This document shows positions 17,362-35,009 of a stretch of 43,031 nt of DNA, one piece after another. Made by a program: the position numbers and the translations under genes. The stretch's first letter is position 1. Each line of letters opens with the position of its first letter. Source of the DNA: Cyanobacteria bacterium M_DeepCast_200m_mx_001 (GTDB lineage Bacteria; Cyanobacteriota; Cyanobacteriia; PCC-6307; Cyanobiaceae); assembly GCA_016882415.1 (NCBI GenBank), contig VGQL01000005.1, positions 1 to 43,031 on the forward strand. Direction: 5' to 3'. The notes under the pieces are model-generated. The model did no database searches. It was given only the letters and a program-made list of their open reading frames with translations, and was not told the origin of the DNA.

Positions 17362-18894
17362 ATGCCATCCCCTGATCGCGCCACTGTTCTGGCTCAGGCT
17401 GAGGCGGGCTCCAGCTTCATTCCCATCTGGCGCACCTGGCCGGCGGATCTGGAAACCCCCCTCACCACCTGGTTGAAGGTGGGGGCCGGCAGCCGCCACG
17501 GGGTGCTGCTGGAGTCGGTGGAGGGGGGCGAACGCCTCGGCCGCTGGAGCTTTGTGGTGAGCGACCCGCTCTGGACCCTCACCGTGCGGGGGGACCAGGC
17601 GGAGCGCTGCTGGCGTGATGGCGGCCGCCAGGCCCTGCAGGGCAACCCCTTTGATCTGCTGCGTGGGGCCCTGGCCCCCTACAGCGCGCCGGCGATTCCG
17701 GGGCTGCCGCCGCTGGGACAGCTGTTCGGCTTCTGGGGCTACGAGCTGATCCGCTGGATCGAGCCCAGCGTGCCGGTGCACCCCACCGATCCCGATGGCC
17801 CCCCCGATGGCTGCTGGATGCTGGCCGACAGCCTGCTGGCTTTCGATCAGGTGAAGCGGCAGATCACCGCCGTGGCCTACGTGGATCTCGCCCACGGTGA
17901 TCGCACCGCTGCGGCGGTGGATCAGGCCTATGGGGCCGCTGTAGCCCGGCTGGATCGCCTGGAGCAGCGCATGCACCAGCCCCTGCCCCCCGGGGTGGCC
18001 CCCCTCGACTGGCGCGATGACCCCAGCCTGGAGCTCCCCACCCGCAGCAACCGCAGCCGTGAGGAGTTCGAGGCGGCGGTGCTCACCGCCAAGGAACACA
18101 TCGCCGCCGGGGATGTGTTCCAGCTGGTGATCAGCCAGCGGCTGGAAACGGAGGTGCAGCGTGAGCCCTTTGAGCTCTACCGCAGCCTGCGGATGGTGAA
18201 CCCATCCCCCTACATGGCCTTCTTCAATTTCGGCGGTTGGCACCTGATCGGCTCCAGCCCCGAGGTGATGGTGAAGGCGGAGCCCATGGGCGATGGCAGC
18301 GGCCGGGTGAAGGCGTCCCTGCGGCCGATCGCCGGCACCCGCCACCGCGGTGCCGACGCCGCGGAAGATGAGGCCCTGGCGGCGGATCTGCTGGCGGACC
18401 CCAAGGAGCGCGCCGAGCACGTGATGCTGGTGGATCTGGGCCGCAATGACCTGGGCCGCGTGTGCGTGCCGGGCAGCGTGCGGGTGAGCGAGCTGATGGT
18501 GATCGAGCGCTACTCCCACGTGATGCACATCGTGAGCGAGGTGGAGGGGGTGCTCGACCCCCAGCGCGACGTGTGGGATCTGCTGATGGCCTCCTTCCCC
18601 GCCGGCACGGTGAGCGGCGCCCCCAAGATCCGCGCGATGCAGCTGATCCACGCCCTCGAGCCCGACGCCCGCGGGCCCTATTCCGGGGTGTATGGCGCCA
18701 TGGACCTCAGCGGCGCCCTCAACACGGCCATCACCATCCGCACCATGGTGGTGCTGCCGGCGGCCGGGGGGGGCTGGCGCGTGCAGGTGCAGGCGGGGGC
18801 GGGGCTGGTGGCCGATTCGGTGCCCGCCTCCGAATTCCAGGAAACCCTCAACAAGGCCCGCGGCATGCTCAAGGCCCTGGCCTGCCTGGCATGA
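17362..18894 (+). CDS. trpE: Anthranilate synthase component I
   Basis: 'FEAAVLTAKEHIAAGDVFQLVISQRLE', 'LIGSSPEVMVK', 'RPIAGTRHRGADAAEDEALAADLLADPKERAEHVMLVDLGRNDLGRV', 'FPAGTVSGAPKIRAMQLI'. Confidence 0.97.
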   Translation: MPSPDRATVLAQAEAGSSFIPIWRTWPADLETPLTTWLKVGAGSRHGVLLESVEGGERLGRWSFVVSDPLWTLTVRGDQAERCWRDGGRQALQGNPFDLLRGALAPYSAPAIPGLPPLGQLFGFWGYELIRWIEPSVPVHPTDPDGPPDGCWMLADSLLAFDQVKRQITAVAYVDLAHGDRTAAAVDQAYGAAVARLDRLEQRMHQPLPPGVAPLDWRDDPSLELPTRSNRSREEFEAAVLTAKEHIAAGDVFQLVISQRLETEVQREPFELYRSLRMVNPSPYMAFFNFGGWHLIGSSPEVMVKAEPMGDGSGRVKASLRPIAGTRHRGADAAEDEALAADLLADPKERAEHVMLVDLGRNDLGRVCVPGSVRVSELMVIERYSHVMHIVSEVEGVLDPQRDVWDLLMASFPAGTVSGAPKIRAMQLIHALEPDARGPYSGVYGAMDLSGALNTAITIRTMVVLPAAGGGWRVQVQAGAGLVADSVPASEFQETLNKARGMLKALACLA

Positions 18895-23689: not shown

Positions 23690-23763
23690 CGAGCATGGAG
23701 GGACTCGAACCCCCGACACTCAGAACCGGAATCTGATGCTCTATCCAACTGAGCTACATGCCC
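23690..23763 (-). tRNA. tRNA-Arg (CCG)
   Basis: Minus strand GGGCATGTAGCTCAGTTGGATAGAGCATCAGATTCCGGTTCTGAGTGTCGGGGGTTCGAGTCCCTCCATGCTCG; anticodon loop TTCCGGT. Confidence 0.96.
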
Positions 23764-23819
23764 ACGCGGGATCAGCTGCCCCACGGGCCTTACCTTAGCC
23801 CTCAGACGGCCCCAGACCC

Positions 23820-24941
23820 ATTCGGCTGCATCGCCTGGAGCTGCGCCAGTTCCGCAATTACGGCGCGCTTGAGCTGCAGTTGGAGGCGCCGCGGCTGTTG
23901 GTGATCGGCCGCAATGGCGAGGGCAAATCCAACCTGCTGGAGGCGGTGGAGCTGCTGGGCAGCCTGCGCTCCCACCGCTGCAGCAGCGACCGCGATCTGA
24001 TCCGCCAGGGCCAGCCGGCGGCCCTGATCGCCGCCAGCTGCAGCGACGGTGACCGCCTGGAGCTGGAGCTGCGCCGCCAGGGGGGGCGCCAGGCCCGCCG
24101 CAACGGCCGGGTGCTGGAGCGCCAGCACGAGCTGATCGGCCCGCTGCGCTGCGTGGGGTTCAGCGCCCTGGATCTCGATCTGGTGCGGGGGGAGCCGGCC
24201 CTGCGGCGCCAGTGGCTCGACCGGGTGGTGTTGCAGCTGGAGCCGGTGTATGCCGAGCTGCTCAGCCGCTACGGGCGGCTGCTGCGACAGCGCTCCCAGT
24301 TGTTGCGCCGCGGCCTGGCCCAGGGGCAGCTGCAGGATCTGCTGGAGGCGTTCGACCAGCAGATGGCGCTGGTGGGCACCCGTCTGCACCGCCGCCGCTT
24401 GCGGGCCCTGCGGCGCCTGCAGCCCCTGGCGGCCCAATGGCAGGGGCGCCTCAGCGCCGGCCGGGAGGCGCTGGTGCTCCGCTACCAGCCCGGCGCCAGC
24501 CTGGAGGTGGAGGGGCCTGAGCCGGAGCAGGAGGGCCCCTGGCGGGACAGTCTGTTGGAGCAGTTACGGGCCCAGCGGCCCGAGGAGCTGCGGCTGGGGC
24601 AGTGCGCCGTGGGGCCCCACCGCGATGAGGTGGCTTTGGAGCTGGGGGACCAACCGGCCCGCCGTTATGGCTCCGCCGGCCAGCAGCGCACCCTGGTGCT
24701 GGCCCTGAAACTGGCGGAGCTCGAGCTGGTGCAGCAGCTCTGGGGGGAGCCGCCCCTGCTGCTGCTCGACGACGTGCTGGCCGAGCTGGATCCCGACCGT
24801 CAGCAGCTGTTGCTGGAGGCGGTGGGGGAGGGGCACCAGTGCCTGGTGAGTGCCACGCACCTGGGGGCCTTCAGCGGCGGTTGGCACCAGCGTTCGCAAC
24901 TGGTGACCGTTGAGGCAGGAATGCTGCGGCTCGGCCAGTAA
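23820..24941 (+). CDS. recF: DNA replication and repair protein RecF (5' end uncertain; possibly an ATT start)
   Basis: '[52 protein letters not shown]', '[18 protein letters not shown]', '[20 protein letters not shown]'. Conserved N-terminus begins upstream of the first canonical start (TTG 23880). Confidence 0.93.
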
Positions 24942-33174: not shown

Positions 33175-34608
33175 ATGTTGGAAGCCCGCGCCCACCAACA
33201 GCTCAAGGACCTCCTGCGCCAGGAGGGCGACGCGCGCTGGCCCCATCACCTCACCCTGAGCCGCCTGGTGGCCCGCAGCCTGCGCCGCGGCGACCAGACC
33301 CTGGTGCGCTTGGCCCCCGGTAGCGACCCCAGCTGGCTGTTGGGGCTGCTGGTGCCCCTGGCCCTGCATGACGGGCCCGTGGCGCTGCTGGTGAGCCCGG
33401 CGCTGCGCCAACGGCTGCTGCAGGTGGAGCTGCCGCGGCTGGAGGCCGTGGGCTTGAACCTGCCCTGCTGGGAGGGGGCCACCGCACCGGAGTCGGCGCG
33501 GCTGTGGTTGCTGCAGCACGACCAGCTGGTGGCCGCCTGGCGCGCCGGTGGCCTGGCGGAGCGGCAGCTGCTGATCCCCGAGGGGGAGCTGCTGCAGCCG
33601 CTGCTGCGCCAGGCCCTGGGGGTGGTGATCGACACCCCCCACTGGGAGCAGCTGCGCCGCAGCCTGCCCGCCGCCGCCGCCAGCCTGCTGCAACTGCATG
33701 AGCGCCTCAGCCGCCGGGTGCTGGCCCGGCCCTGCGGCCCCCAGCAACGGGTGGCCATCAGCGCCGAGGAGGAGGCGCCGCTGCGGCAACTGCTGGCGGT
33801 GCTCTCGCCCCTGCCGGACCCCTGGCCCGCCTGGTTGGCCAGCGGCGGCGACGGCTGGACCAGCTGGGCCCAGGTGACCCCGGCCCTGTTGCAGTGGCAG
33901 TGGCACCGCCAGCCCCTCGATCCCCTGGCGGTGTTGCCCGCCCTGTTGGAGGCCCGCGGGGTGGTGCTGGTGGGTCCCTGGTCCCAGGGGGTGGCGCCCC
34001 TGCCGGGCTTCAGCCCGGCGGTGCAGGTCAGCCTGGCGGACCCGCCGCTGCTGGATCCCCTGCCCCTGTTTGCCCCCGCCGCCCAGGCCCTGCCCAACGC
34101 GCCCCATTACCCCGCCCACCTGCTCGACCAGTGCCGCAGGCTGGTGCTGGGGCAATCGGGTCTCACGGTGGTGCTGCTGGACGACGAGGGGCTGCGGCTC
34201 GGGCTCACCAGTGCCCTGGCGGCGGAGTTTGGTTCGCGGGTGGGCCACGAACTCACGGCCCCGGAGAGCAACGGCGTGCTCTGCTGCAGCTGGGGTTGGT
34301 GGTTGCAGCACCAGCCGCGCCTGCCGCTGCCTTGCCAGATCGTGGCCGCGACCCTGCCCATCGCCAGCCTTGAGGACCCGCTCACGGCGGCCCGGGTGGC
34401 GGCCCTGCGCAGCCAGGGGCGTGATTGGTTCCGGGAGTTGCTGTTGCCCGAGGCCCTGGGCCGTCTGCAGCAGGCGGTGGCCGGTGTCCGCCGCAACGGC
34501 GGCCGACTGGCGGTGCTGGATGGGCGGCTGCGGCGCCGGGGCTGGGGCCGCCAGGTGCTGGAGGCCCTGGAGCCCTGGGTGGATCTGCCGCGCTTGCGGC
34601 CGAGCTGA
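33175..34608 (+). CDS. DinG/XPD-like helicase-related protein, apparently lacking Walker motifs
   Basis: C-terminal 'GRDWFRELLLPEALGRLQQAVAGVRRNGGRLAVLDGRLRRRGWGRQVLEAL' resembles the DinG C-terminus; no GxGKT or DEAH found in the translation. Confidence 0.55.
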   Translation: MLEARAHQQLKDLLRQEGDARWPHHLTLSRLVARSLRRGDQTLVRLAPGSDPSWLLGLLVPLALHDGPVALLVSPALRQRLLQVELPRLEAVGLNLPCWEGATAPESARLWLLQHDQLVAAWRAGGLAERQLLIPEGELLQPLLRQALGVVIDTPHWEQLRRSLPAAAASLLQLHERLSRRVLARPCGPQQRVAISAEEEAPLRQLLAVLSPLPDPWPAWLASGGDGWTSWAQVTPALLQWQWHRQPLDPLAVLPALLEARGVVLVGPWSQGVAPLPGFSPAVQVSLADPPLLDPLPLFAPAAQALPNAPHYPAHLLDQCRRLVLGQSGLTVVLLDDEGLRLGLTSALAAEFGSRVGHELTAPESNGVLCCSWGWWLQHQPRLPLPCQIVAATLPIASLEDPLTAARVAALRSQGRDWFRELLLPEALGRLQQAVAGVRRNGGRLAVLDGRLRRRGWGRQVLEALEPWVDLPRLRPS

Positions 34609-34645: not shown

Positions 34646-34891
34646 ATGGGAGAGGCCAAGCGCCGCGCTGAACAGGGGTTGCCCGCGCGCCCCAAGCCCC
34701 CCAAAGCGGTCCCCCAGGACACCTCCCCCCGCATTGCCCCCTGGCTGCCCCTCACCCAGCGCCAGGGGGAACGGTTTGTGCAGCTCACCACCCGCGGCGC
34801 CTGGATCGGCATCGGCTCCCTGGTGGTGTTCTGGATCATCGTGCGGTTCATTGGTCCGGCCGCCGGCTGGTGGACCCTGGCGGACGGTTGA
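34646..34891 (+). CDS. DUF2839 domain-containing protein
   Basis: 'MGEAKRRAEQGLPARPK...RGAWIGIGSLVVFWIIVRFIGPAAGWW' is a short cyanobacterial protein of this family. Confidence 0.8.
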   Translation: MGEAKRRAEQGLPARPKPPKAVPQDTSPRIAPWLPLTQRQGERFVQLTTRGAWIGIGSLVVFWIIVRFIGPAAGWWTLADG

Positions 34892-34924: not shown

Positions 34925-35009
34925 ACATGGGCGCCGAGCGAGTATTTCTACCCACGCAATTCTGAAGAAAACCTTAGAATTGCCCGATCAATCGCTCGTC
35001 CGCCCATGT
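34925..35009. promoter_or_regulatory. Three-tier nested inverted repeat spanning the start codon of the DUF1815 gene
   Basis: ACATGGGCG (34925-34933)/CGCCCATGT (35001-35009); CGAGCGA (34935-34941)/TCGCTCG (34992-34998); GCAATTCT (34956-34963)/AGAATTGC (34976-34983). The ATG at 35006 lies in the outer arm. Confidence 0.7.

Follow-up and report, generated by a model that had tools for sequence, protein, structure and literature searches.

A conserved promoter and a shared operator-like palindrome, rather than an RNA switch, as the best reading of a nested inverted repeat before a cyanobacterial DUF1815 gene

The described systems closest to the region before the DUF1815 gene are class II activator promoters, RNA thermometers and translational riboswitches, and the PedR regulon. 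The absence of a canonical -35 box is compatible with activator-dependent promoters. Our locus resembles a class II activator promoter in having a TANNNT -10 box at a near-fixed position before the gene, a palindrome at about -41 and a weak -35 region; it differs in a spacer block, GAAGAAAA, that occurs only before DUF1815, and its start site and factor are predicted. With RNA thermometers and translational riboswitches it shares a long stem that would pair the ATG, in one genome only, but conservation and covariation are lacking and the likely transcription start lies within the repeat. In Synechocystis PCC 6803 the thioredoxin-switched LuxR-type regulator PedR activates chlL, chlN and chlB and represses ndhD2, and ndhD1 is listed as an RpaA target in PCC 7942 (PMC13421787). 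In Fischerella a DUF1815 ORF is preceded by a mapped start site, so such a gene can have its own promoter (PMC5580265).

We analyzed a window of 43,031 nt from Cyanobacteria bacterium M_DeepCast_200m_mx_001 (contig VGQL01000005.1); the relevant features are collected in Table 1. DUF1815 is present in all 25 genomes of the genus and in most other cyanobacteria sampled. The ATG at 35006 is likely the true start because a conserved N-terminus of the MFARLAEHYR type begins there across the genus. Ten of the 12 other family genera sampled (G025-G036, mostly small genomes) lack the gene and, since nearly all other cyanobacteria sampled have it, this absence is, judged by gene content, a lineage loss. 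A sequence search returned no solved structure for DUF1815. The stop codon of the DUF2839 gene lies about 115 nt upstream on the same strand with no terminator between, and many congeners likewise have a readable DUF2839 3' end ahead of DUF1815. Farther upstream, positions 33175-34608 of the window encode a protein of 477 aa that matches DinG/YoaA-type helicases over its last 80 residues. No further domain was detected in it at the threshold used, and it is possibly a degenerate helicase.

Table 1. Features of the DUF1815 upstream region, in window coordinates.
Feature	Position	Strand	Remarks
DUF2839 gene, 81 aa, upstream	34646..34891	+	PF10999
Outer left arm ACATGGGCG	34925..34933	+	pairs with 35001-35009; missing in the closest relatives (L002, L003)
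Middle left arm CGAGCGA	34935..34941	+	pairs with 34992-34998; without conservation
Operator-like palindrome (T/C)GAGTA-TTTC-TACCCA	34939..34954	+	core GAGTA-N4-TACCC at 34940-34953; between middle and inner arms
Conserved core promoter block CACGCAATTCTGAAGAAAACCTTAGAAT	34953..34980	+	from the alignment of 27 genomes
Inner left arm GCAATTCT	34956..34963	+	within the conserved promoter block
-10-like hexamer TAGAAT	34975..34980	+	TAGGAT in most relatives, TATGAT in L027; TANNNT nearly invariant
Inner right arm AGAATTGC	34976..34983	+	overlaps the -10 box
Predicted transcription start	34987	+	inferred from the -10 box ending at 34980
Middle right arm TCGCTCG	34992..34998	+	similar CGCTCG in L002, L005, L008 and L017 without a matching left arm
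Outer right arm CGCCCATGT, holds start codon	35001..35009	+	relatives have a similar gene 5' end and no matching left arm
DUF1815 gene, 112 aa	35006..35344	+	PF08844, E 2.7e-44

The preliminary description reported three nested perfect arm pairs with 24 paired positions at 34925-35009, an ATG inside the outer right arm and no T-run. Direct reading and a script that found the arms again (9 + 7 + 8 bp, strictly nested) bear this out, and a terminator scan downstream of the repeat gave neither a terminator nor a T-run. The predicted RNA fold is strong: a 116-nt stretch reaches -45.7 kcal/mol, compared with -29.4 in shuffled sequences (z -4.8), and a 90-nt stretch has a z of -6.4. First-order random sequence would give 0.5 nested triples per Mb with 24 or more paired positions; the source genome has four, this repeat included, in a sample of 383 kb (the window plus 340 kb from outside it), or about 10 per Mb. 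With fold energy adjusted for GC content, about ten other places in the 383 kb are equally or more extreme. The repeat is real, fairly rare and beyond what composition gives, but it is not unique in this GC-rich genome. A mobile element or repeat family was considered and rejected, as the 90-nt unit occurs once in the source genome and other matches are short pieces.

Comparison with relatives separates the arms from the sequence around them. We aligned the 90-nt region of 27 genomes: the source, 24 of its congeners and members of two other genera. None of the other 26 has the outer or the middle left arm, not even L002 and L003, the closest relatives, whose DUF1815 proteins are 93 and 91% identical. 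Folding the RNA, a check of the kind that the preliminary description had proposed, gives a strong fold in the source genome, but the 26 relatives fold like shuffled sequence (z +2.1 to -2.2), leaving the exceptional fold to the source genome alone. When the three-tier structure is imposed on the alignment, 56.8% of cells are paired, compared with 57.1% after column shuffling, and double changes are no more common than in shuffled columns. The inner helix pairs in 71.5%, more often because its columns are conserved in sequence. RNAalifold predicts zero pairs as a consensus structure for the 27 genomes, the repeat has no Rfam match (the window gives tRNAs only), and the start codons of the relatives do not share a mode of sequestration.

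The conserved element of the region is a block ending in a -10-like box. About 25 nt ahead of the ATG, all 25 congeners carry CNCGCAA-NN-CTGAAGAAAA-NN-TTAGGAT or a variant, and CNCGCAANNCTGAAGAAAANNTTAGGAT or slight variants of it keep a near-fixed distance to the ATG in all of them. Between the genes, conservation is highest in TTAGGAT/TTAGAAT and the A-rich block just upstream. Recognizable forms persist in the two further genera (GAAAGAAAACTTTTAGGAT in L026, GAAGAAATCCTTATGAT in L027), and GAAGAAAANNTTAGRAT occurs once per genome, solely before DUF1815, in 14 of 16 congeners tested. Within the genus the spacer block (34953-34980) hardly varies, and it is specific to DUF1815. The position of the TANNNT hexamer is conserved, as in a sigma-70-type promoter; a canonical -35 box 16-18 nt upstream was not found, nor did a scan find a sigma-70 consensus promoter. 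The best reading of the conserved feature is a -10-like DNA promoter of DUF1815. Because its predicted start is near 34987, transcripts from this promoter would lack the left arms, and the predicted transcript shows no unusual structure (z 0.10).

The same region holds a palindrome that is shared with other promoters. It is centered about 28 nt ahead of the -10 box, near -41. At DUF1815, this palindrome, (T)RAGTA-N4-TACYCA, is kept as GTA-N4-TAC in 13 of 25 congeners and is missing or degenerate in the other 12, so the promoter does not depend on it. When the region served as a DNA query, AGCGAGTATTTCTACCCAC-like matches (95 to 100% over 19 nt) appeared in G000, G008 and G009, located between thrB and ndhD1, both genes being named by sequence recognition. 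The ndhD1 promoters of the genus contain RAGTA-N4-TACYCA forms such as AAGTAGAAATACCCA and GAGTACAAATACCCA. TRAGTA-N4-TACYCA occurs at 33 places in the 25 genomes, compared with 5 for the reversed control, and 27 of these precede ndhD1 (16), DUF1815 (4), chlL (4) or psbD (3); the places left unexplained are about as many as the control gives. In 121 family genomes the strict form TGAGTA-N4-TACTCA occurs at 54 places, compared with 10 control matches, and among 30 loci examined 25 are ndhD1 promoters and one is chlL. The palindrome is thus enriched and placed before orthologous genes, as a group of operators would be. Most congeners, and members throughout the family, have it before ndhD1 (L034 at G000:C16, ~18650-18676, L035, L036 and L041-L065), and in some congeners the palindrome also precedes chlL (L088, L094, L099, L103) and psbD (L100, L108, L110).

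The arrangement of the palindrome varies between promoters. Some ndhD1 promoters have the same spacing, in their case to TAGATT; several others have a shorter one, and because their palindromes lie closer to the -10 box, one mode of action cannot explain every site. In G000, G008 and G009 the ndhD1 palindrome belongs to a larger dyad, GTATTTCT-N8-AGAAATAC. This longer dyad was rejected as the wider motif, being present solely before ndhD1 of these three genomes. NtcA sites have the spacing GTA-N8-TAC, and with GTA-N4-TAC here an NtcA site was rejected as well. We tentatively propose, at slightly less than even odds, that TGAGTA-N4-TACYCA marks an undescribed picocyanobacterial regulon that covers ndhD1 family-wide and chlL, psbD and DUF1815 in parts of the family. 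If so, the DUF1815 protein would join a light- and redox-responsive photosynthesis program. The presence of the same palindrome at ndhD1, and at chlL and psbD in some relatives, makes it probable that the source genome and about half of its congeners control DUF1815 together with genes for photosynthetic electron transport and chlorophyll.

We consider it likely, with a probability of roughly 0.8, that the region is a DNA promoter of DUF1815 with TAGAAT as the -10 box, a start near 34987 and a factor bound to the palindrome, and that the nested left arms are private to the lineage and have no needed function. RNA polymerase would use the -10 box, and the conserved CNCGCAA and spacer block would occupy the -35/spacer region, where a canonical -35 hexamer would otherwise lie. 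A dimeric transcription factor on GAGTA-N4-TACCC, possibly a LuxR-type regulator such as PedR, would modulate the promoter from a class II activator position. The inner arms would derive from promoter sequence, and the outer and middle left arms would have arisen in this lineage alone, by chance or as a template-switch copy of the right arm. The hairpin itself is probably an incidental, private by-product. Against this promoter reading stand the missing -35 box and consensus promoter, and the terminator-free gap after DUF2839, across which read-through transcripts carrying all arms could form. The preliminary description had offered a DNA operator/promoter as its second possibility: the promoter with TAGAAT is supported, with its conserved distance to the ATG, and there is an operator-like site in the palindrome near -41, but the three-tier repeat is not that site.

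The first possibility in the preliminary description was a 5' leader RNA switch, with transcription starting upstream of 34925, at a promoter of its own or as read-through from DUF2839, and a three-tier stem that hides the ATG and opens in response to heat, a ligand or a protein. The strong predicted fold does pair the ATG, and read-through from DUF2839 could supply such a leader. However, the outer and middle stems are missing in every relative, and neither covariation, an Rfam family nor common start-codon sequestration was found. In L016, L019 and L020 DUF2839 ends about 70-75 nt before the DUF1815 ATG, so there is no room for the left arms outside DUF2839. The covariance analysis, which the preliminary description had suggested, found neither compensatory changes nor retained arms in sister genomes, and this outcome is the first half of what it had said would refute its proposal. 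We regard such a switch as very unlikely, and a tempting candidate is removed for lack of support; an RNA role through read-through transcripts is possible in this lineage only, with comparative support absent. Still less probable, and close to negligible, is that the whole dyad serves as an operator for a DNA-binding protein. Its symmetry does surround a promoter, but relatives that retain the promoter have not kept the arms, and the full 90-nt unit occurs just once in the source genome. Under the promoter reading, the outer arms probably came about by accident in this lineage, perhaps through a template-switch mutation. That one or two such quasi-palindrome events made the outer and middle arms by copying the right side leftward concerns their origin and is compatible with a promoter; we hold it to be conceivable, if on balance doubtful. 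In comparison with L002, the left flank carries eight substitutions in a 13-nt block of equal length, bordered by an identical CACACAT and an identical 36-nt stretch. The new block is a near-perfect reverse complement of the right arm, and the right arm resembles that of relatives (CGCTCGATCGCCCATG in L002), so the block is possibly the signature of a template switch, with chance as the alternative. On the other hand, the left flank is highly variable across all congeners, and a one-base offset between the two arm pairs means that a single clean event is insufficient.

The promoter with its shared operator motif is testable and links the DUF1815 protein to NDH-1, chlorophyll and photosystem II genes. 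For the factor, PedR is a candidate only. That this thioredoxin-controlled LuxR-type protein binds TRAGTA-N4-TACYCA, making DUF1815 answer to photosynthetic electron flow, seems rather unlikely to us. The palindrome targets overlap in kind with its PCC 6803 targets, chlL/N/B and an ndhD gene (PMC13421787), and the half-site TGGGTA agrees with TRGGY, the core of the published motif RWWTRGGYNNYY. The source genome and the five congeners tested encode a small LuxR-type protein with C-terminal cysteines, PedR-like as judged by size, domain and cysteines only. However, the flanks of the published motif do not fit, so that the match is partial, the PCC 6803 target is ndhD2 and not ndhD1, and DUF1815 and psbD are not among the targets in the review (PMC13421787). 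The assignment of ndhD1 to RpaA in PCC 7942 also argues against PedR. The PedR-like proteins (L116 at G000:C3 ~23700-23960, and L117-L121) carry ICRDGFNCC near the C-terminus, and in several genomes their gene lies about 5 kb from an ndhD paralogue.
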